Made by a program: the position numbers and the translations under genes. The notes under the pieces are model-generated. The model searched no databases, was not told the DNA's origin, and saw only the letters and a program-made list of their open reading frames with translations. From Octadecabacter sp. B2R22 (GTDB taxonomy: Bacteria; Pseudomonadota; Alphaproteobacteria; Rhodobacterales; Rhodobacteraceae), in contig NZ_JAHKQJ010000009.1 of NCBI RefSeq assembly GCF_018861045.1, positions 1 to 46,766 on the forward strand: a stretch of DNA of 46,766 bases, written 5' to 3'. Below, one piece after another: positions 15,666-44,693 of the stretch (positions are counted from its first letter, which is position 1; each line of letters opens with the position of its first letter).

Positions 15666-18221
15666 GTGGCCGAGTTCGAACATGTTTCGACGCAGACGAA
15701 CGGAGAGGTTTCGCACACCATCGGGCTGGCTGACGTAACGAGCTTTACGCTTGGCGAAGAGACCTATGTCTATACGGCGAGCGCGATGGGGGGCGGTGTT
15801 ACAGCCCGAACAACGGGCAGCGACATGACGATTCTGGACCACGAAGACTATGACACTATCCAAGGGCTCGATGCGGGGCGTTCGCTATCTGTCACCGGAT
15901 TTGATGGTGAGGCGACTTTGATCGCGGTGGGGCGTTATGGCACTGAAATCGAAACATGGGAGATCAATTCAGACGGAACGCTTGGCGGGTTAGAGACGCT
16001 CTCATTTGTTGGACACGAAGACGAGGCCATAACGGCATTCGTCGATTATTATAGCGGGGGCAGTCACTACTTTGTCTCGGCGAGCCGCCATAGTGACGGG
16101 CTGACGGTCTGGGAACGTGACGCGGGGACCTTGGTCGAAATTGGCAGCACTGACGTTTCATCGTTCCTATCCGCCGGTTCTGTTCACGCCGTCCAAATGG
16201 CAGAACCGGATGGGGTATCACATGTGTTGGCGCTGGATCACACCACGGATGATTTACTGGCATTTCGTGTTCTGGATGACGGCACTTTGGGTGTTCCGAC
16301 GCGGTTGGATGATCGGGATGGCCTGTTCATATCCACCCCCACAGAATTGGACGTGGTCGAGCTGGATGGCCAAACATTTGCCATTGTGGGTGCCGCTGGC
16401 AGCAGTTCGATATCGGTGGTGGCGTTAGATGCGACAGGGCAGATGACGGTCATAAGTCAGGTGAACGACACGCGCGATACGTTTTTCGATGGTTTGGTCC
16501 ATTTGGAAACCCTAGAAGTGAACGGCCGAGTTCTTATTCTGGCGGGCGGCAGCGACAACGGGCTAAGTCTGTTGTCACTGCAAGCCGACGGGCAGTTGTC
16601 CCACGTCGCGAGCCTTGACGACGAGATGCGTGAGATGGCGTTGATGGATACGGGCGGCCTAAACATGGTTTGGCGTGACGGCGGGCTGGACATTTTTGTG
16701 ACGGGGGAAACGCTTGACGACACCGAAGCAGGGCGCGGGATTACGCAGCTGCGGGTTGATGACCTCGACGTTGAATTACCAACACCCCAACTGGGCGATG
16801 ATGAGGGCATATTCTTTGGCACGGCCAATGCGGATCAGTTTGTCATCGAAGATTCTGGTGTTCGACAGGTTGTGAACGATTTCAACATTGACACCGACCA
16901 CCTGGATTTCAGTGATTTCGATCAGTTTTTCGACCTTGATCAGCTGACATTCAAATCCAAGAAGAACGGGTTGGAGGTCAAGCTGAACGGCACCACCATT
17001 CGGCTAAACAGTGATGACGGTGACCCGATTTTGGAAGAAGATTTTCTTGCCAGTCATGAAGCCGGAATATGGCAGATCGATACGACGGCCCTGCCCACCG
17101 AAGCCCTGAATGAGACAGGAACAGAGGAGCAAGATCTTTTAGATGGCCGCGAGGGCGATGATTTCTTATTGGCGGGGGTGGTCGACAGTGCATTTGATGC
17201 GGTTTCATCGCAAATATTCCGCCTGTATCAGGCCACGTTGGACCGGACACCGGATGTCACTGGATTGAACAACTGGGCGGATCGTTTGGACAGTGGGGGG
17301 TACACACTGGTCGAGGTGACGCATGGTTTCGTGAATTCGCCTGAGTTTCAAAAGACATATGGAGATTTGGACAACGAAGGGTTTGTGAGCCTGCTTTATG
17401 AAAACGTGCTGGGTCGCGCCCCAGATGCCACAGGGTTGGCAAACTGGACTGCGCGGTTGGACGATGGCGCAAGTCGCAGTTCAGTCGTCGTGGGATTTTC
17501 TGAAAGTGCCGAGTTCAAGGGCACCACAGAAATCGAGTCTTTGAGTTTCAGCAGGGCGGGACTTCAAAGCGGGTTTTTGGACGATGTTTTCCGGCTGTAT
17601 GGGGCAACGCTTGATCGTGTTCCTGATGAGGGTGGGTTTGGAAATTGGTCGTTACGTTTGGCCGAAGGGACGTCCTATCTGACCGTTGTTGACGGGTTCA
17701 CCAATTCTGCAGAATTTCAAAACACCTACGGGGCGACGGACAATGGTGGCTTTGTGGAACTGCTTTACAACAACGTTCTCGACCGCGCGCCGGATGAAAC
17801 TGGCCTTGAAAATTGGACGACACGACTGACCACCGGAGAGATGTCGCGGGCGCAAGTGGTGCAGGGATTTGCCCAAAGTACAGAATTCAAAGAGGCGACC
17901 CATGATGCGATGACAGATTGGGTGAAGAGTTTTGGCACCGAAGACATTCTGTCCGGAGGAGGGGGCAGCAATGTCCTGATCGGCGGCATTATGTCTGACA
18001 CATTTGCGTTCGAGCAATCCACAAATGGCCACAATGTGATCATAAATTTCGAGCCTTGGGATGTTCTAAGTTTCGCCGGATCCGAATGGGATTCAGTTTC
18101 TGACATTGCGCAGTTGCTGGTTTCAGATGGGACCAACGTAATTTTTGAAGATGCAGGCTTGGTTATAGAATTCTGCAACACGACACTCGAACAGATCCTC
18201 GATTCCGAGTTTTTGTTCTGA
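15666..18221 (+). CDS. large secreted-type protein: beta-propeller-like N-terminus, two DUF4214 units, RTX-like C-terminus
   Basis: The 851-residue acidic protein starts at a GTG with GGAG seven bases upstream. Residues 1-370 have repeated strands of the type LIAVGRYGTEIETWEINSDGTLG and SISVVALDATGQMTVISQVND, consistent with a seven-bladed propeller. An RTX-like segment (GIFFGTANADQFVIEDSG) follows near 380. Two DUF4214 units start at about 515 (FRLYQATLDRTPDVTGLNNWADRL) and 637 (FRLYGATLDRVPDEGGFGNW). The last ~100 residues are the shared cassette with DILSGGGGSNVLIGG and NFEPWDVLSFAG. No Sec signal peptide is present, so type I secretion is likely. The function is unknown; a matrix or surface protein is inferred from the neighbouring polysaccharide genes. 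Confidence 0.85.
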   Translation: MAEFEHVSTQTNGEVSHTIGLADVTSFTLGEETYVYTASAMGGGVTARTTGSDMTILDHEDYDTIQGLDAGRSLSVTGFDGEATLIAVGRYGTEIETWEINSDGTLGGLETLSFVGHEDEAITAFVDYYSGGSHYFVSASRHSDGLTVWERDAGTLVEIGSTDVSSFLSAGSVHAVQMAEPDGVSHVLALDHTTDDLLAFRVLDDGTLGVPTRLDDRDGLFISTPTELDVVELDGQTFAIVGAAGSSSISVVALDATGQMTVISQVNDTRDTFFDGLVHLETLEVNGRVLILAGGSDNGLSLLSLQADGQLSHVASLDDEMREMALMDTGGLNMVWRDGGLDIFVTGETLDDTEAGRGITQLRVDDLDVELPTPQLGDDEGIFFGTANADQFVIEDSGVRQVVNDFNIDTDHLDFSDFDQFFDLDQLTFKSKKNGLEVKLNGTTIRLNSDDGDPILEEDFLASHEAGIWQIDTTALPTEALNETGTEEQDLLDGREGDDFLLAGVVDSAFDAVSSQIFRLYQATLDRTPDVTGLNNWADRLDSGGYTLVEVTHGFVNSPEFQKTYGDLDNEGFVSLLYENVLGRAPDATGLANWTARLDDGASRSSVVVGFSESAEFKGTTEIESLSFSRAGLQSGFLDDVFRLYGATLDRVPDEGGFGNWSLRLAEGTSYLTVVDGFTNSAEFQNTYGATDNGGFVELLYNNVLDRAPDETGLENWTTRLTTGEMSRAQVVQGFAQSTEFKEATHDAMTDWVKSFGTEDILSGGGGSNVLIGGIMSDTFAFEQSTNGHNVIINFEPWDVLSFAGSEWDSVSDIAQLLVSDGTNVIFEDAGLVIEFCNTTLEQILDSEFLF

Positions 18222-18271: not shown

Positions 18272-20245
18272 ATGGAAAACGCGCCGACTGAGTTTGAACA
18301 GCTGATGTTGGAATACATCAATCGCGCCCGCATGAATCCAGACGGGGAATATGACGTCGCGATGGATGCGATTTCATCTAACCCTGATGTTGCGTCCGCG
18401 ATCAGCTATTTTGGCGTCGATATGGACGTCTATGCGGCGCAGATGGCGGCGTATGATCCTGTTGCGCCTCTCGCTTGGAACGATGCTCTCGCGGCGGCGG
18501 CAGATGCCCATTCGCAGCTGTTGATTGATGTAGATGAACAGTCCCATCAGGTCGATGGTGAAGCATCATTGTCCAATCGGATCGAAGATGCCGGTTATGA
18601 CAATCTGTGGACGGTAAGAGAGAACGTTTACGCGTACACCAAGGACACACTGTATGGTCATGTCGGGTTCATGGTTGATTGGGGGTACGATGCCGTCGAT
18701 TTTGATGAAAACGGCACCCTCTATAGCAACTGGCAGAGCCTTGGCGACGGCATTCAGGACAGCGCGGGTCATCAAGCGTCAATCATGTCAGGGACGGTTG
18801 AAGACATTGGTATTTCCGCGTTGGAGGAAACTGATGCCAGCACCGGTGTCGGCCCGTGGGTGGTTACGCAGGATTTCGCGGCATCCTTCGGCAGTAGCGT
18901 CGTATATCTGTTAGGCGTCTTTATTGACGATGCGGATGATGACCAGTTCTACGACATGGGTGAGGGGATAGGGGATGTAACTGTTACCGTAACCGATGAC
19001 GACACTGGCGATGTCTTTACAACAACGACTTGGGCGGCTGGTGGATACCAAGTGGCCGTCGACGCCGGAAGCTACACCGTTGAATTCTCGGGCGATGATT
19101 TAACTGGTGTTGCGACGTATTCGGTCGACGTCGCCGATGAAAATACGAAGCTAGACGGGTTTTTCGAAGATCTTGTGGAGACGGCTTATACGTTTGCCGA
19201 TGGATTTGAGGCACAGTATTTCTCGTCCGTCTCTGAACAAGTTTTCCGCCTTTATCAGGCTGTCCTTGGGCGTGAGCCAGATAATTCGGGGCATCTGGCA
19301 TGGACCGAACGTCTTGCTGTCGAAGGCCAAGAACTGTTGGACGTCATTGGTGGGTTCATGGGCTCTAGCGAGTATCAAACACAGTACGGCGGGCTTGAGA
19401 ACGAAGCCTTTGTTGAGCTTCTTTATTCTAACGTACTTGGCAGGGATGCGGATGACGCCGGGCTAACGCGTTGGGTTGGAGAGCTGGAAGCCGGAACCGA
19501 GAGAGCATCGGTCATCCAAGGTTTTTCAGAGAGCACCGAGTTCAAGAGTAGCACCGCTGAAGCGGCCAGTGCGTTCACGAAAGGCAATTCGCCGTCCGAG
19601 TGGAGTGATGATGTGTTCCGGTTGTACCAAGCAACATTAGATCGAGCACCTGACGCGACTGGATTTGCGAATTGGTCCGATCGACTTGGGTCGGGGACAG
19701 ATTATTTAGACGCCGCGAGCGGCTTTGTGAACTCAACGGAGTTCGCGAATACCTATCAGGATTTGTCGGATTCTGAATTCGTAACGCTTTTGTATGCCAA
19801 CGTTCTTGATCGCGCGCCCGACGAAACCGGTTTGGAAAACTGGTCGCAGCGGATGGCTGACGGGATGACCGAGGTCGAGGTTGTCCAAGGGTTCGCACAG
19901 AGTGCCGAGTTTATTCGGTCGACAACCGATAGCCTGAAAGACTGGATTATCGCGCAAGGTGTCGATGATGAACTGGAAGCCGGCAAGGATGGGACGTTGC
20001 TTGCGGGTGGTTCTCTTTCGGACAGTTTCATTTTCTCCGAGACTGTAGCGGAAACGACGGTTCTTGATCTTGAGGCATGGGATTTCATCGACCTCACTGA
20101 TTTTGACTTGGCGAATGTGTCAGACGCCCAAGCCTTGTTCAGTCAGCAAGGTGACGATGTTGTTTTTGATGACGACGCCAATGCGACGGTTACATTCGTG
20201 GACACAGATATCTCACTGATCACGGATGATATGATCCTGATCTAG
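18272..20245 (+). CDS. CAP-domain protein with SdrD-B-like domain, DUF4214 units and RTX-like C-terminus
   Basis: The 657-residue protein opens directly with a CAP/SCP-like domain (about residues 6-210): LMLEYINRARMNP, a His in QSHQVDGEASLSNRIEDAGY, ENVYAYT, and DSAGHQASIM with a second His. These match the two conserved His and the Glu of CAP proteins. A beta-sandwich of SdrD-B type follows at about 213-290 (DADDDQFYDMGEGIGDVTVTV, a likely calcium loop). Two DUF4214 units begin near 318 and 443, and the shared RTX-like cassette (AGKDGTLLAGGSLSDSF, LEAWDFIDLTDF) ends the protein. No signal peptide is seen; type I secretion is inferred. GGAG seven bases upstream fixes the start. It lies 50 bases after the previous exoprotein and may be cotranscribed. 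Confidence 0.87.
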   Translation: MENAPTEFEQLMLEYINRARMNPDGEYDVAMDAISSNPDVASAISYFGVDMDVYAAQMAAYDPVAPLAWNDALAAAADAHSQLLIDVDEQSHQVDGEASLSNRIEDAGYDNLWTVRENVYAYTKDTLYGHVGFMVDWGYDAVDFDENGTLYSNWQSLGDGIQDSAGHQASIMSGTVEDIGISALEETDASTGVGPWVVTQDFAASFGSSVVYLLGVFIDDADDDQFYDMGEGIGDVTVTVTDDDTGDVFTTTTWAAGGYQVAVDAGSYTVEFSGDDLTGVATYSVDVADENTKLDGFFEDLVETAYTFADGFEAQYFSSVSEQVFRLYQAVLGREPDNSGHLAWTERLAVEGQELLDVIGGFMGSSEYQTQYGGLENEAFVELLYSNVLGRDADDAGLTRWVGELEAGTERASVIQGFSESTEFKSSTAEAASAFTKGNSPSEWSDDVFRLYQATLDRAPDATGFANWSDRLGSGTDYLDAASGFVNSTEFANTYQDLSDSEFVTLLYANVLDRAPDETGLENWSQRMADGMTEVEVVQGFAQSAEFIRSTTDSLKDWIIAQGVDDELEAGKDGTLLAGGSLSDSFIFSETVAETTVLDLEAWDFIDLTDFDLANVSDAQALFSQQGDDVVFDDDANATVTFVDTDISLITDDMILI

Positions 20246-20329
20246 GCAACGCGCGGTGGGTTTCTGATGTCTTAAAGGATGGTTTCTAGGTTTGGTGCAA
20301 TCACGCCATCAACTCGGGGAACCCATAAT

Positions 20330-21457: not shown

Positions 21458-21493
21458 GCGGGCCTCCAAGACAGGAGGCCCGCTACCGTTTTT
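21458..21493 (+). terminator. rho-independent terminator after the DUF2793 gene
   Basis: GCGGGCCTCC at 21458-21467 pairs perfectly with GGAGGCCCGC at 21474-21483 around a six-base loop, followed by TACCGTTTTTA. It ends plus-strand transcription and also lies between two convergent genes; the minus-strand side lacks a good U tract. Confidence 0.88.
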
Positions 21494-22919
21494 AGCCTTT
21501 GGCGCCTTGGCCGCGCGAATAGATGTCTTCGTAGCGGATGATGTCGTCTTCACCCAAATACGCACCTGTTTGCACTTCGATCAGGACCATTGGGACCTTA
21601 CCGGGATTTTCCATACGGTGAACGGCACCAAGTGGAATGTAGACAGATTGGTTTTCAGTCAGCAGGGTAACCGTATCATCAACTGTGACCTTTGCCGTCC
21701 CTGCCACTACGATCCAGTGTTCGGAACGGTGGTGGTGGCTTTGAAGGCTGAGTGACGCGCCAGGGTGAACGTGAATGCGTTTAACCTGAAAGCGGTCGGC
21801 GAGTACCAGTGTCTCGAACCAACCCCATGGGCGGTGATCTACAGGGAAGTGCTGAGCCTGCTTCGCACCGCGGTCTTTCAGAACTTTTACAGCTTTTTTG
21901 ACGTGCTGGCTGTCGGACAGATTTGCGACCATCACCGCATCGCGCATGGCAACGGCGACAGTGTCTTTCATGCCGATTGCGACCAGTTCAATTTCGTCGG
22001 TTTCCGATCGCAGCAACGTGTTTTCGCAATCAAATGCCGTTGTGTTTTCGGAGAATGCGTTTCCGTTTTCATCCTTTGGCGATTCCTGCCAAACGGATTC
22101 CCAGCTTCCCAGATCGGACCACTGCCCATCGAAACGGACGACGCTCATGTTATTGGCTTTTTCCATGACCGCGTAATCGACGGAGTCTTCGGGGACACTT
22201 GCCCATAGATCAGGGTCGATGCGAATGAAGCTTAGGTCGTTTGTACCGGCGTTGATTGCAGCCTCGACGGACGCCAAGATTTCGGGGGCATGTTCGCGGA
22301 ACGCCGCGATCAGTGTGTTTGCTTTCGCAAGGAATACACCGGCATTCCAAAGGTTGACCTTGTTTTCGAACAGGGCCTGAGCACGCTCTTCATCAGGTTT
22401 TTCAATGAACCGCGTCAGCTGGTGGACCTTTGGGTGCGTTTCATCACCCGCTTCGAGCCAGCCATAACCGGTTTCAGCGCGTGTTGGCGCGATACCGAAA
22501 GTGACGATCTGGCCCTCTGCCGCTGCGACGCTGCCTTTCTCGACGGCCGTACGGAAAGCCTGCGGGTCTGCGACAGCGTGATCGGATGGCACGAGAAGCA
22601 ACATCGCATTTGGATCTGTCTTGGCGACTTGCAACGCTGCTGCGATCGCGGCCGGGGCTGTGTTGCGTCCCTCAGGTTCGATCATGATGTCAGTCGCGTT
22701 CATTCCGACTTCGTCGAGCTGTTCAGTTACAATAAACCGAAAGTCGTTTCCTGTAATGATGATTGGGTCCGTGAACTCCGGCCCAGCAAAACGTTTGGCC
22801 GAAGCTTGGAACAGGCTTTCATGACCAATCATATCAGCGAATTGTTTTGGAAAGCTCTTGCGGGAAAGTGGCCAGAGCCGAGTTCCGGAACCGCCGCACA
22901 GTAAAATCGGTGTAATCAT
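21492..22919 (-). CDS. manC: mannose-1-phosphate guanylyltransferase / mannose-6-phosphate isomerase (bifunctional)
   Basis: The 475-residue protein has the length of the bifunctional ManC/AlgA type. The N-terminal nucleotidyltransferase starts with LCGGSGTRLWPLSRKSFPKQF at residues 7-27. The C-terminal cupin (about 360-440) carries RPWGWFETL, HPGASLSLQSHHHRSEHW and VVAGTAKVTV, with the metal-binding His cluster of type II phosphomannose isomerases. It would turn fructose-6-phosphate into mannose-6-phosphate and mannose-1-phosphate into GDP-mannose, feeding the Gmd enzymes encoded upstream in the same cluster. Its ATG overlaps the preceding stop (ATGA), indicating translational coupling with the sulfotransferase-like gene. 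Confidence 0.95.
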   Translation of the reverse strand: MITPILLCGGSGTRLWPLSRKSFPKQFADMIGHESLFQASAKRFAGPEFTDPIIITGNDFRFIVTEQLDEVGMNATDIMIEPEGRNTAPAAIAAALQVAKTDPNAMLLLVPSDHAVADPQAFRTAVEKGSVAAAEGQIVTFGIAPTRAETGYGWLEAGDETHPKVHQLTRFIEKPDEERAQALFENKVNLWNAGVFLAKANTLIAAFREHAPEILASVEAAINAGTNDLSFIRIDPDLWASVPEDSVDYAVMEKANNMSVVRFDGQWSDLGSWESVWQESPKDENGNAFSENTTAFDCENTLLRSETDEIELVAIGMKDTVAVAMRDAVMVANLSDSQHVKKAVKVLKDRGAKQAQHFPVDHRPWGWFETLVLADRFQVKRIHVHPGASLSLQSHHHRSEHWIVVAGTAKVTVDDTVTLLTENQSVYIPLGAVHRMENPGKVPMVLIEVQTGAYLGEDDIIRYEDIYSRGQGAKG

Positions 22920-23842
22920 TGAGTTAGGCCTTTCAAATTTGACTGCGGTGCAATGAGCGCGTCACATGTATCGTAAAGGATGTTGTCCCAAACGGTATAG
23001 CGTTCAAAAATTTCTCGTTGTTTCGGGCTCAGCGAAGAGATCGCGGACTCGTATTTGTCCGAGTTCGGCGACGTATTAGCGCGATCGATATTCGGGGACG
23101 CGAGGAACCCTTCTTTGACGAGCGTCGCCAAGAGAAGTTCGATCTTCTCTACGACGCCCAAAATCATATTGGGGGCCGTGATGTTATGCAGCGCCATACG
23201 CAAAAGGCTGGCTTCGGTGCCAAAGCTGGTCGCATTGAACTGACCAGACAAACGGCGCATCTGACCGTTGTCTATTTCCAGACGGTGGTTAGGCGTTCGG
23301 GTGCTGTAATCAAGGTAGTCACCAAAGCTCATGTCCTGTTCGTTGAGTATCTCAAATGAAGGATGTGTGCGGGTACGTTTGATGAATTGGTAAAAGCTAA
23401 AGATCCGCGGCCCGGGGCGACGCAGCGCACATAGATAACGATAGGGCAGGCCATATGCCTCACCCGCGCCCATGCTAAGGTGCCCACGAATATATCGGAG
23501 GTTCCGTCTTACAGGGCGGGGTAGGGCCTTTAGTTCATCCAACGTGCCATCGTGCACAATCCGGTTCGGCTGCAGGGATGGTTCCGCAGACAGCGCTTTG
23601 GCCAGAGAGGTTCCTGCCGTTTTAGGAAGGTGAAGGTGGATAAGCGCCGGTTTGATCTGCGCGTCTTGTTCTGCAAGCATCGCTGCATACCGACGTCGAA
23701 ATTCGTCAGATCCCATGAACGCACGTCGCACCGAAGAAAGCGTTTCGTGGTTTTTGGCTTGGTTGGCGATCTCTTTTTCGGACCCGCGACGGTCCAAAAT
23801 CAGTTGGTAGGCCAGAGCGACTTGGTTTGGATTTAAGGGCAT
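22916..23842 (-). CDS. sulfotransferase-like protein with a DUF4214-like N-terminal segment
   Basis: Residues 5-60 (QVALAYQLILDRRGSEKEIANQ, then VRRAFMGSDEFRRRYAAM) resemble one DUF4214 unit: the YxxxLxRxxs/G start and the FxxSxEFxxxY end match those in the secreted proteins of this window. The sulfotransferase domain begins at about 69 with HLHLPKTAGTSLAKAL (phosphosulfate loop), and has YLCALRRPGPRIFSFYQF as the likely second phosphate motif. The protein is 308 residues long, without signal peptide, and presumably cytoplasmic or membrane-associated. It would sulfate a carbohydrate at the site of synthesis. It overlaps manC by four bases. A DUF4214-like domain on an enzyme suggests that this domain recognises the acceptor glycan; this is inference. 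Confidence 0.82.
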   Translation of the reverse strand: MPLNPNQVALAYQLILDRRGSEKEIANQAKNHETLSSVRRAFMGSDEFRRRYAAMLAEQDAQIKPALIHLHLPKTAGTSLAKALSAEPSLQPNRIVHDGTLDELKALPRPVRRNLRYIRGHLSMGAGEAYGLPYRYLCALRRPGPRIFSFYQFIKRTRTHPSFEILNEQDMSFGDYLDYSTRTPNHRLEIDNGQMRRLSGQFNATSFGTEASLLRMALHNITAPNMILGVVEKIELLLATLVKEGFLASPNIDRANTSPNSDKYESAISSLSPKQREIFERYTVWDNILYDTCDALIAPQSNLKGLTQ

Positions 23843-23906
23843 TTAGAACCTACAACTGATGTTTCATGCTGCGAGGTCGTCCAGCTGGATATGTGGCGAC
23901 GGATCA

Positions 23907-25601
23907 TCATTTGAGAAGCTCTCGTGCATGGGCATATAAGATACGATCATATGCAACGAGCTCTTCCATGTCGTCACGCGATTGAGCGGTTGGTTTTTGT
24001 TTGGTGATTTTCCGCATATCGGGGCTGCTGTCCATAAGGTCATCGAGAACCTGATGTTTCTTGACTTTTGAAGGCGGTTCGCAGCCCAACGTCGCGGCAA
24101 GGCGTTTCATGTCCGCTGCGTATTGGTCCATGAAGCCAACAAACGCGAATTTTTCCAGATTGCGCAGGGCTTGTTCCAACATCTCGTCGAGCGAGATTTC
24201 TTTGGCGGCGCCGGTTTCATGGTACCGCCCGATCTGTGGAACGTCAGAGAAATAGCGCACCATTGTGTTGTTGATTGCCGGACTGTTGCGAATGACCGGG
24301 TGTTCAAAATAGCTGTCGACGTCGTGCTCGTTCGCCCAACGGGGCAGAACGAGGTTGTGACGCTCGATAATGCTTGGCGAGTGCGCTCGGTGAAAGTTGT
24401 ACAGTGATACAAGTCGATCCAGCGGGTCGCGCAGGAACGTGATCATCTTCTTAGGACCAGGAATGAGCGTCGTGGCGTAGTGATCGTAATGACCAGAGAA
24501 GACCTTTGCAGACGCGAGGCTAGCGCCAGTGTGACCGTACAAACCATTCAACCGTTCGGAGTGAACATTCGATTGTCCAAACCAGTAAGACAGCATGTTG
24601 TGTAAAGTTGTACCGCCGCATTTGGGAATGTGCAGGAATACAACGCGATCCTCTTTTGCCGGCTGAAACTTGGTGATGTTCTTGAATGGCGTCGCAGGCG
24701 TAGACTGCTGGACGTTCGCGGTAGGTTGAGCGCCGGCGATATTCTTGTACTGCGCCGAAAATTCGGACGACTTTAGGAAAACCTGACGAAGGCTTGTGAT
24801 GTCAGGGTGCGTGTTCTTCACTCTCTCCATCTCTTGAGGTGAGGGCGCGCGACCTAGGAAAACATTATAGCTTGTCTGGATGTCACGATCGGAAAGACCA
24901 ACTTGTTTTGGGTCTTTCTTGGACGCGTCAAGGGATGCGCGCAGTCGGTCAATCGTGGGCAGGCCTTGTAAGAGGATGATCTGTGCATTCGTCGCATCAC
25001 GACCCATGATGTTTTGGTATGTCTGCTGCACGACGTGGCGAGGAAGTTTGAGGGTACGAAGCCCCGTAATTACATCTTCATTGTTATGGCGGAACGTGTC
25101 CGGAACGAGACGGTCCAAAAGAGGTAGCAAAGGAGCGCAAAAGCGTTCTGCGTCAGTTGAAAGCAGAGGGGTGGTTTCGTGCTTTTCTGGCGCAAGAGCG
25201 TTGATTACAGGATTCAGCGTTTTGGCCGGTGTCAGCCGCATTGCATTCAGGTTCAGCTTTGGTGTGGATTTGACGTCTGAACCGCCAATCCAACGTTTCC
25301 GGAAGTCGAGGAAACTAGAGAAGTATTCACTGACAAAGCGGGCAAAGTTATCAACGGTGTCTTCAAGGCCGTCACGCACAGCCTTTTCGAAAGCGAGAAT
25401 GGCACCAGGCAAAAATGCCAAATGGACCACAACTTTTTGGCCTTCAATGGGGTCTTCACCGCTCAGCTGTGCTGCTGTTGCGACTTTGATTTTAGTCTCT
25501 GTCGCATTCGCCAATTCCGCCAAAAACACCTTGGCCTCATCAGGAATAGACCCTGATTTGATGTCTGTAAGTGGCCAAAAAACGGCGGTCACATGTGTCA
25601 T
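23907..25601 (-). CDS. sulfotransferase-like protein with two DUF4214-like segments
   Basis: The 564-residue protein has an unrecognised N-terminal region of about 170 residues. Two DUF4214-like units follow at about 190-290 (VQQTYQNIMGRDATNAQII and IQTSYNVFLGRAPSPQEMERV, the second ending FLKSSEFSAQYKNIAG). A sulfotransferase domain starts near 320 with VFLHIPKCGGTTLHNML, the 5'-phosphosulfate loop, and continues with MITFLRDPLDRLVSLYNFHR as the 3'-phosphate motif. It lacks a signal peptide. It sits between a glycosyltransferase and the second DUF4214-sulfotransferase in the GDP-sugar cluster, so it probably modifies the same polymer. GAAAGA precedes the ATG at 25601 at a rather long distance. 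Confidence 0.83.
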   Translation of the reverse strand: MTHVTAVFWPLTDIKSGSIPDEAKVFLAELANATETKIKVATAAQLSGEDPIEGQKVVVHLAFLPGAILAFEKAVRDGLEDTVDNFARFVSEYFSSFLDFRKRWIGGSDVKSTPKLNLNAMRLTPAKTLNPVINALAPEKHETTPLLSTDAERFCAPLLPLLDRLVPDTFRHNNEDVITGLRTLKLPRHVVQQTYQNIMGRDATNAQIILLQGLPTIDRLRASLDASKKDPKQVGLSDRDIQTSYNVFLGRAPSPQEMERVKNTHPDITSLRQVFLKSSEFSAQYKNIAGAQPTANVQQSTPATPFKNITKFQPAKEDRVVFLHIPKCGGTTLHNMLSYWFGQSNVHSERLNGLYGHTGASLASAKVFSGHYDHYATTLIPGPKKMITFLRDPLDRLVSLYNFHRAHSPSIIERHNLVLPRWANEHDVDSYFEHPVIRNSPAINNTMVRYFSDVPQIGRYHETGAAKEISLDEMLEQALRNLEKFAFVGFMDQYAADMKRLAATLGCEPPSKVKKHQVLDDLMDSSPDMRKITKQKPTAQSRDDMEELVAYDRILYAHARELLK

Positions 25602-25649: not shown

Positions 25650-28187
25650 TTATAGATCTTCTAGGATTTCTTTCAAACGGCCACCGTACCGTTTGCCGAT
25701 CGCCTTGCTTGAGAAGTTTTTACTAATGTAATCGTACGCTGCTTCGGCTTTTCCAATACGTTTCTTTGGATCATCGTAGGCTGCACGGAGCTGCGACGCG
25801 GCGTGCTCGATGAAAGGTTCGGCCCATTCGGATTTGGGGCGCACAAAAATGTAATCGCCATGGCGCAGTTGCGATATTTCGTAATCGACCAACCAAACCG
25901 TTTCGTCCGAGCAGAAATCCATATTTCCGGAATACGCAGTGCAAACGACCGGAACCTTCAGGTTCATGGCTTCGATCATGCCGAAACCCCAGCCTTCGGA
26001 TTTGTGCAGCGAAATGTAGCAATCCGACCCGCATTTGAGACGCAGCAAGTCATGGTAGCTAAGTGTCTGGTTCAGGACCACAATACGTGGGTCTGATGAC
26101 ATGATTGCATCAACCTGATCCCAAAGCTGAACCTGAACTGGGTCGAAAACGGAATCACGGTTTTGGGTCTTCACGATAAGGCGGGCATTCTTTACGCCCT
26201 CAAACGCCTTTTGGAATGACTTCAGAACGCTGACTGGGTTCTTGCGCTGAACAAACGAGAAGCTGTCAAACGCAACCAAGCAAACGTAGTGTTCTTCATC
26301 AAACTGGAACAAACGATTCACGAAGTCGCGGCTGTCTTCGCGCGTGATGTCTGTGTTGTCTTCGAAACACATCCCGACGTTGACGACCGGTTTCCCTTTT
26401 GCGTCGTCCTTATAGATGTCGACGCCGTACTCGGTTGAGACCCAGATTTCGTCCAACAACTCCATGCCGAGATAGTGGCAATACGCTGGTTTATCGAGTT
26501 CCCAAAAGAAGTAGCCGATATTGTAAGAGTTCGAGAAAACATCTGGCTGATAGGCATACGCGAGAGGCGTGCTTTCAGCGTTCAGGTGAATGATATTCAC
26601 CTTGGCTGGGCCATATTCCTCGATGAGTGTGTCGGAGCTGAATCCAACGGGGGCCGGATTGTCGAGGTCGAAATCGACGCCTCTGATTGAGACACCTGTT
26701 TCACGCAAAACAGCGGCAGACAAACGTGTCGCCTGACCAAGGCCAGACGCCTTTGCGAGCGGGCCGATCAGCTGAACATCAACGGTTTCGCGGTCGCCGT
26801 TCGGCACTGTAAGGGCGGCCGCTTCGAAGCGGTTGCCGTCCTGATCTCGGGTCATGAACATAAAGCTGTCGAGGTCAAAACCGCGTTTGCGCAGGATTGC
26901 AGCATAGCGATTGCGAGACATCGAAGTGAATTCACCGTCGTCGTTCTGCAGGCCACCTAGGAAGCGTTCGAACTCTGACTGACCGTCTTCGCCTTCAACA
27001 AGCAGTGAATTGATCGAGGACTTCGGGATATAGCGGAGCAGATCCGGCCGTTCGACGGCTGCCAGCATCATCGCCAGAACAAGGGATTTTCGTCCACTTG
27101 CGGTGCCCGGCCGTAAGAAATGCAGGCTCGGTGTGTTTTGGAAATACCGTTCTGAGAAGTAGCTCAGAGGGTAGGAATCAAGCCGGCGGGATGGGTGCAC
27201 GCCACGTAGGAAATCAGCGTAGCGGTCCGGTATTAAGCAATCCTCGAAGTGCATATGCGGGCAGTCTTGATGGGCCCACCAGAACAACGTGTTTAGAAAG
27301 CTGTCACGATCATTGAGGTTCAAGGTGCCCATCAGGTCGGGACGACCTGTGATGCGCCACCAGATGACACGGCTAACGGAGAACGTTTGACCGGCCATAA
27401 CGATCGGCTCGTTCAAGTAGTCGATGAGGTCCGCACTAAGTGGCACGCGGCGCTTTTCGCCACCGCGATATGCGGTCAGATACCAGAACAAAAACCGATC
27501 TTGGCTCTCAAGCCCAGGTTCGACCTTATAGGTTTCATCCATCCGGTATCTGTACCGGACATAATCCAAGTAGGCCGGATGACCACTTGTCGGGATTTCA
27601 GGGATGATCGGATCGGTTTTGAACATCAAACCGTGGTTCTTGAACGGCGGTTTGACGATCTTGGGGAGAGGCCCGTCTAGTTCGGGCGTTTCCTCAGCCA
27701 GCTTTAGAAACTGCGAAATCTGGCTGTTCAAGGCACGACTGCACCGCTCGGCGTCGGAGAGATCAACGGCCGGATTTGAAGCGTCTACGGCAATGGTCAA
27801 AGACCCAATTTCGTAGGATTTATCCCCGTGCGTGCGAACCGAAAGCCTGCCCTTTGTTGTCTTCAAAAGGTCATATGTTGCATCTGTGAGCTTGAAGCCG
27901 AAACCGCATTCAACTTCACCGCCCGTTACGCCGCGAACGTCTTCGCGTAAACCATTTGCAAAGCCGACCTCGACGAGGGTGTCGCCCGCATAAAGCGCCA
28001 CCTGCACGCGTCCTTGCCCGGTGCGTCGGTTGAACACCCAACCGCGCACCATTCCATCGGCGCTTACTCCGTCAACGTAACCCTTGTACGGGCCCATTTT
28101 TGCAAGACGGGACGCCGCATTCGCTGCGCGCTTTGATGAATAAAGGGCATTACCAATCAACCCTCGGAAAGACGAAGCAAAAGACAT
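25650..28187 (-). CDS. large glycosyltransferase (GT4-like) with an N-terminal beta-sandwich domain
   Basis: The 845-residue protein starts with a basic amphipathic region, then a beta-rich domain at about 35-135 (GYVDGVSADGMVRGWVFNRR, VQVALYAGD, ECGFGFKLTD) of a type I have seen attached to other surface-polysaccharide enzymes; its role is unknown. A middle region (about 190-470) is helical and unrecognised. The GT-B domain from about 490 has QLIGPLAKASGLGQATR, a glycine-rich loop, and in its C-terminal half CYISLHKSEGWGFGMIEAMNLKVPVVC, the typical EX7E donor-site motif of GT4 enzymes. It is the fourth gene of the minus-strand GDP-sugar cluster and likely adds a GDP-linked sugar. It begins 29 bases after gmd. 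Confidence 0.86.
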   Translation of the reverse strand: MSFASSFRGLIGNALYSSKRAANAASRLAKMGPYKGYVDGVSADGMVRGWVFNRRTGQGRVQVALYAGDTLVEVGFANGLREDVRGVTGGEVECGFGFKLTDATYDLLKTTKGRLSVRTHGDKSYEIGSLTIAVDASNPAVDLSDAERCSRALNSQISQFLKLAEETPELDGPLPKIVKPPFKNHGLMFKTDPIIPEIPTSGHPAYLDYVRYRYRMDETYKVEPGLESQDRFLFWYLTAYRGGEKRRVPLSADLIDYLNEPIVMAGQTFSVSRVIWWRITGRPDLMGTLNLNDRDSFLNTLFWWAHQDCPHMHFEDCLIPDRYADFLRGVHPSRRLDSYPLSYFSERYFQNTPSLHFLRPGTASGRKSLVLAMMLAAVERPDLLRYIPKSSINSLLVEGEDGQSEFERFLGGLQNDDGEFTSMSRNRYAAILRKRGFDLDSFMFMTRDQDGNRFEAAALTVPNGDRETVDVQLIGPLAKASGLGQATRLSAAVLRETGVSIRGVDFDLDNPAPVGFSSDTLIEEYGPAKVNIIHLNAESTPLAYAYQPDVFSNSYNIGYFFWELDKPAYCHYLGMELLDEIWVSTEYGVDIYKDDAKGKPVVNVGMCFEDNTDITREDSRDFVNRLFQFDEEHYVCLVAFDSFSFVQRKNPVSVLKSFQKAFEGVKNARLIVKTQNRDSVFDPVQVQLWDQVDAIMSSDPRIVVLNQTLSYHDLLRLKCGSDCYISLHKSEGWGFGMIEAMNLKVPVVCTAYSGNMDFCSDETVWLVDYEISQLRHGDYIFVRPKSEWAEPFIEHAASQLRAAYDDPKKRIGKAEAAYDYISKNFSSKAIGKRYGGRLKEILEDL

Positions 28188-28216: not shown

Positions 28217-29230
28217 CTATGCGAGCGCGTCGTAGTCAGACTTTGCCATCATTTCTGCGAGTTCGTTCACAGTCACCTTAGGCTGCCAGCCCAGCTTTGT
28301 TAGGGCTTTCGTCGGGTCACCGATAAGAAGTTCGACTTCGGCAGGGCGGTAGAACTTAGGATTAACCTTCATGACCTGCTTGCCGGACTTCTTATCAGTC
28401 GCGGTTTCGTTTTCGCCTTCACCGGACCATTCAATGTCCATACCAAGCGCTGAACCGGCGGCAGTAAAGAAGTCGCGGATCGTGGTCGTGACACCTGTTG
28501 CCAAAACATAGTCGTCAGGAACGTCTTGTTGCAGCATGTGCCACATGCCTTCGACGTAGTCGCCCGCAAAACCCCAGTCGCGCTTTGCGTCCATGTTGCC
28601 CAACTCGATCGCAGCATCGCCGCCCCGCGCCAAAGCCGCGAGACCCAGCGTGATTTTGCGAGTTACGAATTCTTTGCCGCGCAGCGGGCTTTCGTGGTTG
28701 AACAAAATGCCAGAGGAGGCATGCATGTCGAAACTTTCACGGTAATTCATAGTGATGTAGTGGCCGTACACCTTTGCAACGCCGTATGGCGAACGCGGAT
28801 ATAGGCGTGTGGTTTCAGACTGCGGAACCTCTTGCACGAGGCCAAACATTTCAGATGTCGAGGCTTGGTAGAAGCGTGTCTGAGGGCTGAGGGAGCGGAG
28901 CGTGTCGAGAATTTTGACAACAGCCATCGCATCGACGTCAGCAGTATAGATCGGGAGTTCCCAAGATGCGCCAACAAAGCTTTGCGCGGCCAAGTTGTAG
29001 AACTCATCAATTTCGAGATCGCGGATCACACGGAAAATGTTGTTCTGCTCGGCCAAATCGAACTCATGCAGCTCAACCTGGTTCGTGACACCCAGAAGAT
29101 CCAAGCGCGTCGTCTCCGGCTGTGAAATGCGACGAACGCCCCCGTGAACCTTGTACCCTTTTTCCAAAAGGAATTTGGCCAAATACGCACCGTCTTGCCC
29201 TGTGATGCCGGTAATAAAGGCAGTTTTCAT
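28217..29230 (-). CDS. gmd: GDP-mannose 4,6-dehydratase (paralogue 1)
   Basis: The 337-residue protein has the full Gmd signature: GITGQDGAYLAKFLLEKGY at the NADP-binding N-terminus, YNLAAQSFVGASW, STSEMFG, the YPRSPYGVAKVY catalytic Tyr and Lys, NHESPLRGKEFVTRKIT, and RDWGFAGDYVEGMW. It converts GDP-mannose to GDP-4-keto-6-deoxymannose. I use the ATG at 29230, with AGCGAG six bases upstream; a GTG at 29251 would add seven residues. A second gene of exactly the same length and about two-thirds identity by eye lies 303 bases upstream in the same orientation. Confidence 0.95.
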   Translation of the reverse strand: MKTAFITGITGQDGAYLAKFLLEKGYKVHGGVRRISQPETTRLDLLGVTNQVELHEFDLAEQNNIFRVIRDLEIDEFYNLAAQSFVGASWELPIYTADVDAMAVVKILDTLRSLSPQTRFYQASTSEMFGLVQEVPQSETTRLYPRSPYGVAKVYGHYITMNYRESFDMHASSGILFNHESPLRGKEFVTRKITLGLAALARGGDAAIELGNMDAKRDWGFAGDYVEGMWHMLQQDVPDDYVLATGVTTTIRDFFTAAGSALGMDIEWSGEGENETATDKKSGKQVMKVNPKFYRPAEVELLIGDPTKALTKLGWQPKVTVNELAEMMAKSDYDALA

Positions 29231-29533
29231 CTTGATCTCGCTCAATTTCACATAAATTCAGGGGACACATATTACGGTCGAGTTGGTAACACAATGGTCA
29301 TCCCAACAACGCTAAATAGGCGCTGGATCCAAGATATTTCTTAGGTTTTGGGGTCTACTCGGAGCGCATGTTAAAAATCCCAGAGGTTGAACGCCCTGGA
29401 CGGCTAACTAGGCCACATGTTCCCGGTGGTAACCTGATCCTGAACTTGCTCTGAGTTCTGGCTCAAACGGGTCTCGGGATCGGAGGTTAGCCGCCCCATA
29501 CCGCGATATCGCAGCATGGGGCGAGAAGTCTCA
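29231..29533. other. 303-bp gap between the two gmd genes
   Basis: No gene is visible. On the minus-strand side nearest the upstream gmd there is a hairpin at 29492-29523, and a short inverted repeat (CGGCTAAC at 29401-29408 against GTTAGCCG at 29486-29493). The length suggests that gmd paralogue 1 has its own promoter here, but I see no convincing -35/-10 pair. Confidence 0.5.
29492..29523 (-). terminator. hairpin downstream of gmd paralogue 2
   Basis: CGCCCCAT at 29492-29499 pairs with ATGGGGCG at 29516-29523, and the loop itself contains the palindrome GCGATATCGC. It lies 11 bases beyond the gmd stop. No U tract follows, so it may reduce rather than stop transcription, or protect the mRNA end. 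Confidence 0.45.
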
Positions 29534-30547
29534 TTAAGACAGCGCGTCGAAATCTGCTTTTGCCATCATTTCAGCAAGCGTTTTAACATCTACGGTGTGC
29601 TTCCACCCGAACGCAGCTTTTGCCTTGGATGGGTCGCCAACCAACGCATCGATTTCAACTGGACGGAAGAATTCCTCGCTGACTTTTACGATTACGTTGC
29701 CTGATTTACGGTCGACCGCTTCTTCGGTTACGCCGGCCCCGTTCCATTCAAGGTCCAAGCCCAAGGCAGACCCTGCGTAGGACACAAATTCGCGGATTGT
29801 TGTGCTGACACCCGTCGCGAGAACATAATCGTCGGCGGTTTCTTGCTGCAGCATTTGCCACATGCCTTCGACGTAATCCCCCGCAAAACCGAAATCGCGT
29901 TCTGCATTAAGGTTCCCAAGCAAAAGCGGCGCGCTGTCACCTTTGGCAATCCGCGCAAGTTCACTGGTGATCTTACGGGTCACGAATTCTTTGCCGCGCA
30001 GTGGGCTTTCGTGATTGAACAAGATGCCGCTGGACGCATGCATGTCAAAGCTCTCACGATAGTTAACTGTAATGTAGTGCGCGTAAACTTTGGCAACGCC
30101 ATAAGGCGAACGAGGATAGAAGGCTGTTTCTTCGTTCTGAGGCACGCTTTGGACGCGACCATACATTTCTGATGTGGACGCTTGGTAAAAACGAGCTTCT
30201 GGTAAAACCGTACGGAGGGCATCAAGGATGCGCAGAACACCGATACCGTTTACGTCAGCGGAATAGGTAGGTTGATCCCAAGATGCGCCAACAAAGCTTT
30301 GAGCGGCGAGGTTGTAAACCTCATCAAAATTGTTGTCGCCAAATGTCTTGAACAGATTTGAACTGTCACCCAGATCGAATTGGTGCATGTGAACATCATC
30401 CAACACACCAAGCTTTTCGAGGCAGGCGGTCTCAGGGCTGGCAGGGCGGCGCACACCACCGTGCACCTCGTACCCTTTTTCAAGTAGGAATTTCGACAGA
30501 TACGCGCCGTCTTGGCCGGTAATCCCCGTGATGAATGCTCTTTTCAT
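29534..30547 (-). CDS. gmd: GDP-mannose 4,6-dehydratase (paralogue 2)
   Basis: The 337 residues contain GITGQDGAYLSKFLLEKGY, YNLAAQSFVGASW, STSEMYG, YPRSPYGVAKVY, NHESPLRGKEFVTRKIT and RDFGFAGDYVEGMW, the complete Gmd set, so the protein should be active. Differences from paralogue 1 are spread through the protein and heaviest around residues 35-80 and in the C-terminal substrate region. The ATG at 30547 has GAG about four bases upstream; an upstream TTG at 30562 is less likely. It follows the Fcl-like gene by 88 bases, so fcl and this copy form the usual GDP-6-deoxyhexose pair. Two dehydratases may serve two sugars or simply raise flux. Confidence 0.95.
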   Translation of the reverse strand: MKRAFITGITGQDGAYLSKFLLEKGYEVHGGVRRPASPETACLEKLGVLDDVHMHQFDLGDSSNLFKTFGDNNFDEVYNLAAQSFVGASWDQPTYSADVNGIGVLRILDALRTVLPEARFYQASTSEMYGRVQSVPQNEETAFYPRSPYGVAKVYAHYITVNYRESFDMHASSGILFNHESPLRGKEFVTRKITSELARIAKGDSAPLLLGNLNAERDFGFAGDYVEGMWQMLQQETADDYVLATGVSTTIREFVSYAGSALGLDLEWNGAGVTEEAVDRKSGNVIVKVSEEFFRPVEIDALVGDPSKAKAAFGWKHTVDVKTLAEMMAKADFDALS

Positions 30548-30635
30548 GATCTCATATTCCAAATTTGTATTTAGTTTTTGCCAGATCAGGCTCGCTGATA
30601 TTTCCTAAGGGAGATTTCACAAACCCGACGGCAAT

Positions 30636-31547
30636 TCAATGGCGGGCTTTGGCGTGGTTTTCTTGATACCAATCATATGTCGCCTTCAAGCCATCCCGAA
30701 GAGACCAGCTATGTGTAAAGCCGATGTCGCGCAGGCGCGAGACGTCGTAGCTTCGATCCAGCTGACCCTCGGGTTTGTCGTGCTCCCAGTTGATCCCAGT
30801 AACACCTGAGACCTCGGACAAGATTTCAACGACCCGCGCGATCGGCAGGGTATTGCCTGTCGCAACGTTGATCCGGCCTTCACCATTATCAACCATGTGA
30901 ACGAGAGCCGCAGCTGCATCTTCTACATAAAGGAAATCACGGCGCGCCCGGCCGCGGCCCCAAACAGGAACTGCGCTGCCTTCGTTTTTGGCCGCGAGAA
31001 ATTTGCAGACCAGCGATGGAATAACGTGGCCGTTCTCAACATCAAAACGATCACCTGGGCCATAGAGGTTGGTCAAAATAGCGTAGGCATAGCTCATGCC
31101 ATATTGGCTTTGGTATGCTTCGAGTTGGCCAAGCATCGCGCGTTTGGACGCTGCATATGCGGCTTCGCCTGCGTGGGGCGGGCCATTGAGATATTGCTCT
31201 TCGCGGATATTTTCGACGAGGTGGCCCGGGTATGCCGCAACAGTTGACGCCGCAACAAACCGTTTGGCACCGACGGCGTGGGCAGCTTTGATCACGCTCA
31301 GGTTAATGGAAACATTGTCGTCAAAGACTTCGGCGGGGAAGCGCTTGTTGCCCATCAAACCATGGACGCGGGCAGCCGTATGAATGACGGCCTCTGGCTT
31401 ATGCTTTTCAAAGAAGGCAAGGGTTTGTGCGTAGTCGGTCAAGTCAACTTCTGAGTGCGCAGCCGATACGTAAGGCCGGTTGGCGGCATCCAGTTGCCGG
31501 ACAATTGATGCGCCCAAAAGTCCAGTGGTGCCAGTGACTAAAATCAT
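30636..31547 (-). CDS. fcl: GDP-L-fucose synthase-like NAD-dependent epimerase/reductase
   Basis: The 303-residue protein matches the Fcl/WcaG family: VTGTTGLLGASIV at the N-terminus, HTAARVHGLMGN near 60, the Tyr-Lys pair in AYAASKRAM near 135, TNLYGPGDRFDVENGHVIPSL with the conserved His, and VWGRGRARRDFLYVEDAA. The enzyme class takes the Gmd product GDP-4-keto-6-deoxymannose and makes GDP-L-fucose by epimerisation and reduction. The segment that in E. coli Fcl reads SSCIYP (with the catalytic Cys) appears here as STVAAYP, so the epimerisation Cys seems to be missing and the product could differ. GGAG eight bases upstream supports the ATG at 31547; a GTG at 31577 is weaker. It is the first gene of the minus-strand cluster. 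Confidence 0.87.
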   Translation of the reverse strand: MILVTGTTGLLGASIVRQLDAANRPYVSAAHSEVDLTDYAQTLAFFEKHKPEAVIHTAARVHGLMGNKRFPAEVFDDNVSINLSVIKAAHAVGAKRFVAASTVAAYPGHLVENIREEQYLNGPPHAGEAAYAASKRAMLGQLEAYQSQYGMSYAYAILTNLYGPGDRFDVENGHVIPSLVCKFLAAKNEGSAVPVWGRGRARRDFLYVEDAAAALVHMVDNGEGRINVATGNTLPIARVVEILSEVSGVTGINWEHDKPEGQLDRSYDVSRLRDIGFTHSWSLRDGLKATYDWYQENHAKARH

Positions 31548-31936
31548 CTTCTTACTCCGTAATCTGTTCCTTTCCACTAAGGCGTCTTTTCTAACGTGTG
31601 GAGGAGACAGGGTCTTTAATGTCTAACTATTCTACTGTGCCGCCATGGCATTGAACCGGTATCTTTATGGGCTCAAAACTTGTGACTGCCGTCTTTTCGC
31701 ACCTTGATCTTTTGTTATGCCCTTTTCGCTATGAGGCACGTGGGAGTCAATCCAATTGGCCCCACTAAGTCGCGGATTTGCCTGACCTTTACGTCACCTG
31801 AAAGACATCCTTCAGAGCCTCGTATAGGGGGTTTGATCTAGACTTAGAAGGTAGGGTTTCCTATAGTTAATTTTGTCTAGAAAGATGGCTTATGGTGCCA
31901 TTTGATTTCTTTCGACTACACAGGAGCTACCGTATC
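31548..31936. other. 389-bp divergent promoter region
   Basis: The region lies between the divergent fcl-like gene and the small gene at 31937. It should contain the promoter of the seven-gene minus-strand cluster, which I cannot place, and a candidate plus-strand promoter at 31839-31867. No other gene or long repeat is visible. Confidence 0.5.
31839..31867 (+). promoter_or_regulatory. candidate sigma-70-type promoter
   Basis: TAGACT at 31839-31844 and TATAGT at 31862-31867 are separated by 17 bases and match the -35/-10 consensus at four and five of six positions. This would give the small gene at 31937 a leader of roughly 60 bases. Confidence 0.35.
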
Positions 31937-38491: not shown

Positions 38492-41400
38492 ATGGACGAC
38501 TTTTTCTTTCCGGAACATCAAGCACCCGACAGTTCAGAAGATATTCGAAACGACACCATTCAGACGGCACAACTGATCGCCGAAGGAACATATGATGTTT
38601 CCGGTCTGGGTCATGACTGGTACGAAATTCGTGCCCAAGCAGGTTTCCTGAACATCACAATGACGCCGGGTGATGAACCTCTCAACCTTGAGATGGCGTT
38701 GCACAACAGCGATGGCGACCGCATCCAACGCGCGCCATCGCCAAGCGGTGAAGAAACCCTCGAACGTCGGATCTCGACAGAGGACACCTATTTCCTACGC
38801 GTGTTCGCAGCCCCGCTCGGAGATAACCCCGCCGCCGACACCGAACTGGATTACACCTTATCAATCGATCTACCTGAATATATCGAGGACGATGGAAACG
38901 ACACGCAGGCGACCGCAACGACGCTCGACGAAGGGCAATCTGGCCCAATCTTGGGAACCGGTATCGATTGGTGGAAGGTTACCAGCCCGTCTGGGTCGAT
39001 AAATGTCACCATGACGACTGCGGAAAACCTAGATGATCCAGACGATTTCCGCGACGACCTGCGGAACTTGAATATGGAACTGTACGACAGTGACGGTAAC
39101 CTGTTGCGGTCGAACTTCTCGACCAGCATGGTCGAGGATCTTACCTATCTAGCGCCGACCGCAGGTGATTACTTTATCAAAGTATACACATCGCAATTTG
39201 GCGGAAGCACGCCCGCGCCTGACAACATTCTGCTGAGCTACTCTCTCGACATTGACTTGCCAGAAGAAGACAACCGCGTTGATACAAACGGGTCTATCGC
39301 GACTGCTGAACTGCTGAGCGCAGGGGAAACCGTTGTCACCGACGGGATTGGGTCTGACTGGTATCAGTTTGAATCCGGGCCGGGGCTCATGGAGTTTTCC
39401 ATGACAAACACCGATGTGTTTACGCCAGATGGCACCGCGATGAACCTGAACATGCGTCTTTATGATGCTGACGGAACTCCGATCCGGAACGGGTTCCAAG
39501 AGTTCGCTGACGAAAGCTTTGAACAGTATTCCAACGAAACCGCGACCTACTTTCTAAACGTTTACTGGGCCCCCTATGTGGACCAAGACCTGCCCAATGG
39601 GGTCGTTTTGGATTACACTCTGAATGTTGATCTTCCGATAAACACTTGGTCAAAAGAACTGGAATTTGGCCCTATCCGCAATGCCTCGGCTTCTGTCTAT
39701 GACATCGACAACGATGGCAAAGATGAAATTTTCGTGGGCGCGGTGAAGTCCCTCGATGATGACGGCAATGAGATTTTGCCCGGTGGCCTGATTGTTCTTG
39801 AGGACAACGGTGACGTAAAATGGAGCCAAACATTCCCAGCGATTTCAGGTGCTGACCCAGTTACAGGCCTCTTTTACAACAGTACCTCCGTGACCACTGC
39901 ACCAGTTTTCTCGGATGTGAACGGCGATGGTAGCATAGATATCATTGTTGGTGTTGGCGCTGACAATCGGAACGAATTTGCGCCTGCAGGCCAGCCCGGT
40001 GACATGGGCGGCGTCTATGCGCTGGACAGCGACGGCAACATTCTATGGTCGCACATAAATGAAGATTCATTTGGCCTTCTGAGCGATCCAAATGACCCGG
40101 AATCTGCAAGTGGGCCAGACGGTCGCCCTGATGGGACCTATGGCACACCGCGTGTTTTTGACATCGATGCTGACGGCCAACGCGAAGTGATCGTGGCGTC
40201 TTGGGATCACTATTTATATGTCCTGAACGGGTCCGACGGATCAGTAGAATACCGCGTTGATCTGCACGACACCGCAGGCGCATCACCAGCGGTTGCAGAC
40301 CTTGATCTGGACGGTTTGTTCGAGATTATTGCACCCGCAGATATTACAGCGAACGCGAGTGCTGGCATCCCCGAGCAGGGCGGCATTTTGCACGTTTTGA
40401 ATAACTACGGGCATCAAACCGTGAGCGGCTGGGACACCCAAGTCGGAACATCGACAAATGCTGAGTTCCGAGGCCAATTTGACGAACAATCGTTGTGGTC
40501 AAGCCCCACGACAGCCGATCTGGATAACGACGGCAGCCTAGAAATCATTCAGGGCACGGGCAACTATTTCCAAGATGACCGCGGTCAACATGTGAACGTA
40601 TGGGACGCTGAAGGTAATTTGGTTTACGAACTCGCCACCCAAGGTCGCGTTCTGGCCGGCACTCTCGTTGCTGATCTGGATGGCATCGGCGGATCAGAAA
40701 TCATTGCAGCAACCCTAGAGGGATACGTCCATGCATGGTCGGCATCTGGCCAAGAATTGTTTTCAACTCAGGTGATGCCTTACAATTTATCAACGGGAGA
40801 AGGCGTCGTTGATATTCCAATCGCACGTCAGCCCGTCGCCGTTGATCTGACGGGTGATGGTAACTTGGAAATCCTCGTCAGCATTGGGTCTCAGGTTGTT
40901 GTTCTGGATTCACAGGGCAATCAGATCACCAACACGGATTCAGCAGAACGGGCATTTAACAATTATGCAGGATCCCCCGTCGCACATGACATTGATGACG
41001 ATGGCTATCTGGACTTGATCACGGGCGGCACGAACGCGGCCCAAGATCATGCCGTCGTCTATCGGTGGGAAAACATCGTAGATACGCAGTTCTCAACTGA
41101 AACCCGCATTGGCGAATATCAGAACAGCCAGTCCCTGAACGAGATCGAAGACTTTGTTCAACAGCTCTACGTCAACATTCTTGGCCGAGAAGCAGATGCG
41201 CGCGGTCAGAACAACTGGACGGATCGGTTGTATACAGGTGTTCTCAGCGGATCTGACGTCGCGCGCGGGCTTATCTTCAGCCAAGAATTCGTAAACCAAA
41301 ACACGACGAACGATGAATTTGTTTCTGTTCTATACAAGGCAATCTTCGGCCAAGATGTTCCCGATGAACGTGGCTTTGCGCGATGGACTGGGGATTTGGA

Positions 41401-44600: not shown

Positions 44601-44693
44601 TTGTTTAGGACTTTCAGCCTTGCTCGAATTTCAACCATGGATAATATAAGTATTGGTAGAAATTGATAATAATTGTTTTCAAAGGGTGGATTT

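Follow-up and report, generated by a model that had tools for sequence, protein, structure and literature searches.

Sulfotransferase-like proteins of an Octadecabacter polysaccharide locus carry units remotely homologous to DUF4214

The domain DUF4214 is seldom named in the open-access literature, though it is common on bacterial plasmids. One paper calls it a likely surface-anchoring domain (PMC12780176) and another names it (PMC11970703); in the open-access literature no paper was found under its Pfam accession, PF13946, nor any report of DUF4214 on sulfotransferases, supplements lying outside that search. It is compared here with RsaA, an S-layer protein described as binding O-antigen in a Ca2+-dependent manner (PMC6978808). 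Here we analyze a window of 46,766 bases, one whole contig (NZ_JAHKQJ010000009.1) of the genome of Octadecabacter sp. B2R22, in which two adjacent sulfotransferase-like genes share a locus with genes for secreted-type DUF4214 proteins. A sequence-only reading had assigned one and two DUF4214-like segments to these two genes and had proposed that DUF4214 recognizes the glycan that the enzymes modify. The assignment is confirmed, with one unit in the first protein (p1) and two in the second (p2), and the enzyme units share remote homology with DUF4214 units in surface-type proteins encoded on the same probable plasmid. The proposal of a shared ligand is another matter, to which we return below. 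The two genes and their parts, with sulfotransferase types labeled A, B and C for this analysis, are as follows.

22916..23842, minus strand: p1, 308 amino acids, N-terminal DUF4214-like unit and type-B sulfotransferase (open reading frame (ORF), unit profile, predicted model, fold match, HLHLPKTAGTSL loop)
23678..23842, minus strand: DUF4214-like unit of p1, residues 1-55 (unit profile and predicted model)
23907..25601, minus strand: p2, 564 amino acids, degenerate type-A sulfotransferase, two DUF4214-like units and an intact-looking type-C sulfotransferase (ORF, Pfam, type-A profile)
25053..25601 (end approximate), minus strand: degenerate type-A domain of p2, in which the WPRSGHH loop of relatives is lost
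24900..25049, minus strand: first DUF4214-like unit of p2, residues 185-234 (unit profile)
24735..24896, minus strand: second DUF4214-like unit of p2, residues 236-289 (unit profile)
23922..24659, minus strand: type-C sulfotransferase domain of p2, VFLHIPKCGGTTLHNML (Pfam)

The C-terminal domain of p2 matches Sulfotransfer_2 (PF03567) at 38.7 bits against a cut-off of 22 and keeps the cofactor loop HIPKCGGTTL. Full-length p1 matches no Pfam sulfotransferase family at E<=1, and its predicted model shows the sulfotransferase fold together with the cofactor loop given above; a close relative of p1 in Octadecabacter algicola is 94-95% identical. The two proteins resemble heparan sulfate 2-O- and 6-O-sulfotransferases, p2 by Pfam and p1 by fold and loop, but they are bacterial, carry the added DUF4214-like unit and, for p2, an extra degenerate sulfotransferase domain. 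That domain (residues 1 to about 183) belongs to the type-A family and was found at 25173-25448 by a profile of five intact type-A members (E 4.2e-12), which share SWPRSGHH and each end with one unit; Pfam responds weakly even to intact type A, with Sulfotransfer_3 found in three of the five members at a best E of 0.0014. p1 and p2 probably add sulfate to the surface polysaccharide of the locus, and the unit-bearing sulfotransferases are probable cytoplasmic glycan-tailoring enzymes.

The units in these enzymes are distant from the Pfam model of DUF4214. Neither full-length p1 nor p2 matches it at E<=1, and isolated segments of the two proteins score 13.6 and 17.0 bits against a curated cut-off of 23.2. 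We used a local profile of 18 sulfotransferase units, including one from genome G272 that is left out of the 17-member alignment A1. Although scores stay below the curated cut-off, profile comparison, reverse search and shuffling all detect homology at the profile level: none of 200 permuted profiles and none of 3000 shuffles per segment comes up to the real unit scores, and a search back from the enzyme units recovers 21 of 21 DUF4214 ORFs. Predicted helices at 5-16, 22-31, 35-43 and 46-57 in the p1 unit (a model of moderate confidence) agree in pattern with those at 2-14, 20-31, 37-45 and 48-54 in the secreted-unit model. Convergence, with an LGR-P...S-EF pattern arising by chance in short stretches of helix, could account for scores under the cut-off and for an hhalign score that varies with column settings, but the permutation and shuffle results, the reverse search and the matching helices make such chance likeness very improbable.

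The comparison set comes from the secreted-type proteins, which in the window are the following.

17199..17909, plus strand: four DUF4214 units in two pairs, in the secreted-type protein at 15666-18221 (Pfam 206.4 bits; model described below)
19226..19942, plus strand: four DUF4214 units in the CAP-domain protein at 18272-20245 (Pfam and unit count)
41141..41992, plus strand: four DUF4214 units in the FG-GAP/PPC protein at 38492-42307 (Pfam and unit count)
46524..46766, plus strand: DUF4214 units in the ORF from 44673, open at the contig end (unit count)

Across the window and six plasmid regions, two pairs of units, each unit about 56 residues long, are present in 19 of 21 secreted-type ORFs; the remaining two hold two units each, one of them being broken by the contig end. 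AlphaFold2 modeled one four-unit array confidently (mean predicted local distance difference test score 88.3, predicted template modeling score 0.72), with four helices per unit. Unit length, the four-helix pattern and the core motif Y...LGR.P ... S.EF are common to both kinds of unit, with R16 kept in 78 of 79 secreted and 18 of 18 sulfotransferase units and E48 of the S-x-E-F end in 78 of 79 and 15 of 18, respectively. The signature residues G22, W26, G33 and G42, in contrast, are present in 73, 78, 70 and 75 of the 79 secreted units and show no conservation among the 18 units from sulfotransferases. Enzyme units also occur singly or in twos rather than in two pairs, sit on sulfotransferase-type rather than surface-type carriers and are on average basic (mean net charge +2.3, range -2 to +10), whereas secreted units are acidic (-3.9).

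Unit-bearing enzymes recur beyond the window. At E<=0.001, 16 of 295 family genomes have a match to the unit profile. Twelve of the 16 have enzyme-type proteins among their matches, 15 such proteins altogether: 14 sulfotransferases or degenerate partners and one class I methyltransferase (G008). Other matches proved on re-examination to be ordinary DUF4214 proteins, except one in G160, which contains a stop codon, gave no ORF hit and was excluded from the counts. Related gene sets lie on plasmids of Roseovarius, Neotabrizicola, Sulfitobacter, Alloyangia (two) and Pseudosulfitobacter, four of the six being typed to replicon cluster 252. A type A with a C-terminal unit is paired with a separate unit-type B protein in Roseovarius THAF8 and Sulfitobacter S190; type A, unit and type B are fused in one gene in Neotabrizicola shimadae and in G145, a same-genus genome; Alloyangia and Poseidonocella have unit-type B; and G282 has three neighboring genes for unit-type C, unit-unit-type B and type A-unit. 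Units are also borne by three more sulfotransferase-like proteins, two in Pseudosulfitobacter and one in G254, and two of the three pass Sulfotransfer_2. The unit is found at either terminus, on several sulfotransferase types and on the one methyltransferase. In seven of eight regions compared (the window, L034 and L039-L044) a unit-bearing enzyme gene stands beside manC, with a methyltransferase gene between the two in L039; the eighth, L044, has neither manC nor a unit-bearing enzyme and encodes a related sulfotransferase without a unit (19123-19950).

Wider searches covered type A and DUF4214 themselves. The intact type-A profile matches three of 385 class genomes at 1e-8, the window's own included, and related domains occur in two proteins of G611 and one of G557, where no unit was found. 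The degenerate type A of N. shimadae escapes a tblastn search that takes the intact THAF8 type A as query; absence by tblastn was not used, and the lack of type A in the vicinity of L042 and L046-L048 was judged with a profile that covers degenerate members. DUF4214 is present in nine of 299 phylum genomes at E<=1e-5, and proteins from six of the nine are mostly like secreted enzymes and surface proteins, some glycoside-hydrolase-like with a C-terminal pair. In one genus such proteins (L086, L087, L088) end in the pair, placed much as a carbohydrate-binding module (CBM) would be. Among 72,556 plasmid records, 104 match one unit pair from the window. In a Lichenihabitans plasmid protein, from another order, a single chain joins Methyltransf_11, a DUF4214 of full strength (64.6 bits) and Glycos_transf_2, and the gene lies among glycosyltransferase genes; the occurrence of DUF4214 on glycan-synthesis enzymes therefore does not rely on weak units alone.

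Where types A and B occur together, one of them usually appears degenerate. Six distinct loci have both types: the window at 22916-25601, L034, L039, L040, L041 and L056/L073/L082. By motif reading of aligned cofactor loops, type A is altered in the window (WPLT), N. shimadae (WPAGQK) and G145 (WPDSGQ), type B is altered in THAF8 (PAAEPE) and S190 (PGTGAG), and both are intact in G282. Exactly one partner is altered in five of the six loci, none in one and both in none.

The likeness to RsaA, put forward in the sequence-only reading as an impression, is suggested by predicted fold and by a weak profile signal, and has no counterpart in Pfam. The RsaA N-terminal domain (PDB 6t72, 6z7p) superposes on the predicted model of one secreted DUF4214 pair at 3.0-3.1 Å over 118 residues, with 14% identity; the top 50 Foldseek matches printed for the unit array do not include RsaA, which is present in the realigned list. 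Ranked among itself and 2000 shuffles, RsaA came 35th with the secreted-unit profile and 10th with the sulfotransferase-unit profile. With 3000 shuffles for each of residues 1-56, 50-125, 125-230 and the whole, the number of shuffles reaching the real score was, in that order, 12, 386, 738 and 39 for the secreted-unit profile, 81, 11, 25 and 22 for the sulfotransferase-unit profile and 6, 6, 346 and 2 for a combined profile. Because these 12 segment tests overlap, the sequence link is suggestive only. RsaA itself matches PF19198 and not DUF4214 in Pfam, and PF19198 is not among the matches of three scanned DUF4214 proteins of the window at E<=1. Searches for RsaA relatives found none with PF19198 in 177 genomes and none in the plasmid collection; two matches in 289 genomes (L107, L108) were judged, by their alignments and their lack of units, to be due to chance. 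PDB searches with the secreted units returned nothing significant, whether by phmmer (best, the phycobilisome protein ApcH, E 0.43) or by profile (best E 1.1), and listed no RsaA. Ca2+-dependent O-antigen binding has been shown for RsaA, and no report of it was found for DUF4214.

The best-scoring fold matches of the unit models are phycobilisome linkers, at a root-mean-square deviation of 5.0-5.9 Å for most single-domain linkers and higher for some of these and for multi-domain chains. Secreted-type proteins score 19.9, 19.5 and 12.9 bits with PBS_linker_poly (PF00427), all under its cut-off of 28.7. The phycobilisome linker domain binds phycobiliproteins, and we know of no glycan role for it; in the open-access literature no paper was found that links RsaA with the phycobilisome or, judged by the titles of ten of 18 matching papers, a phycobilisome linker with glycan binding.

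We read the DUF4214-like unit as a mobile four-helix accessory module on enzymes that decorate one surface polysaccharide, holding them to the chain, and put the probability of this at about 0.45. Inside the cell, the unit would tether its enzyme to the growing GDP-mannose-derived polysaccharide in the cytoplasm and raise its local concentration, as CBMs do, through a mostly basic surface that would make direct cationic contact without Ca2+. Outside, acidic secreted units of the same fold would hold the finished polysaccharide by Ca2+ bridges, as RsaA does. Degenerate sulfotransferases (the p2 N-terminus and type B of THAF8 and S190) may be retained with their units as substrate-positioning subunits. 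The likeness to the CBMs of carbohydrate-active enzymes would be that of a small module tethering an enzyme to a polymer, but no CBM family is among the Pfam matches and binding by DUF4214-like units is a proposal. Two observations weigh against a simple shared ligand, the loss of the four signature residues and the opposite mean charges, and for these reasons we do not adopt as demonstrated that one and the same glycan is bound by DUF4214 within the cell and at its surface; the sequence-only reading is supported in part. The same differences are why our mechanism separates fold from role, with Ca2+ bridging outside and cationic contact inside.

The linker matches bring in a protein-docking role, which is a real possibility that we hold tentatively. 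The unit would assemble sulfotransferases, degenerate partners, methyltransferases and glycosyltransferases as phycobilisome linkers assemble phycobiliproteins, and fused genes would need one unit, the covalent link replacing docking. Beyond the fold matches and the sub-threshold PBS_linker_poly scores, this fits the split pairs of THAF8 and S190, which have one unit on each protein where the fused N. shimadae and G145 genes have one, and the single altered loop in five of six two-partner loci is what an obligate heteromer could allow. Fused p2, however, has two units; units occur at L042, L046, L047 and L048 without a detectable type-A partner nearby and on a methyltransferase (L071); and they occur on secreted-looking enzymes, for which a cytoplasmic enzyme complex is impossible. 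It is unlikely that the units are inherited linkers of DUF4214 ancestry whose binding role is gone. Lost signature residues and the first unit of p2, which scores only 8.8 bits and has an irregular end, look like such decay, but R16 and E48 are largely kept, and units have persisted next to catalytic domains that are degenerate, on enzymes of several types and at either end of the protein, which argues for selection. A broader scheme, which we consider doubtful, would unite DUF4214 and phycobilisome linkers with the anchor domain of RsaA in a single ancient superfamily of four-helix domains. The branch of it found on bacterial surfaces would recognize the polysaccharide of its own cell inside and outside the envelope, with Ca2+-bridged acidic units anchoring surface proteins outside and basic, Ca2+-free units holding sulfotransferases and methyltransferases inside, in active/degenerate sulfotransferase pairs.

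The surroundings of p1 and p2 are those of a polysaccharide locus, in a contig with replication, ParA/ParB-like, polysaccharide export, precursor and transferase genes.

21492..22919, minus strand: ManC, mannose-1-phosphate guanylyltransferase, adjoining the sulfotransferase slot (sequence and annotated similar DNA)
25650..28187, minus strand: glycosyltransferase on the other flank, in which no DUF4214-like unit was found when searched for
28217-29251, minus strand: GDP-mannose 4,6-dehydratase (Pfam)
29534-30562, minus strand: gene resembling GDP-mannose 4,6-dehydratase (sequence resemblance)
30636-31577, minus strand: epimerase/dehydratase (Pfam)

The dehydratase and epimerase genes (28217..31577) may supply a GDP-fucose-type precursor. 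Four more sulfotransferase-like genes lie at 10300-11493, 32215-33087, 33097-33966 and 37345-38196, two matching a Pfam sulfotransferase at E<=0.001 (one above the cut-off) and two assigned by sequence only; given these, the polysaccharide may be heavily sulfated. A DUF2793 protein (20279-21430) adjoins the DUF4214 genes, and DUF2793 genes are annotated in five of six related plasmid regions, L040 being the exception. On a related Alloyangia plasmid, cysD and cysN for sulfate activation adjoin a DUF4214 gene (L044, 12549-15420). The first ORF of the window (1-315) lacks a start and the last (44673-46766) lacks an end, and both resemble a DUF4214 paralogue located elsewhere in the same genome (L104): positions 1-312 translate to 104 residues 99% identical to its C-terminus, and at the opposite contig end the final 128 residues are 76% identical to an inner part of it. 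Since both ends match this paralogue, the contig probably represents an entire circular plasmid.

The relation to RsaA, if true, would supply DUF4214 with a template for its structure and a concrete way to assay it. Apparent pairs of one intact and one degenerate sulfotransferase would be another arrangement, open to test, by which bacteria make sulfated polysaccharides, and the units on probable cytoplasmic glycan-tailoring enzymes offer a soluble system in which the function of DUF4214 can be tested.
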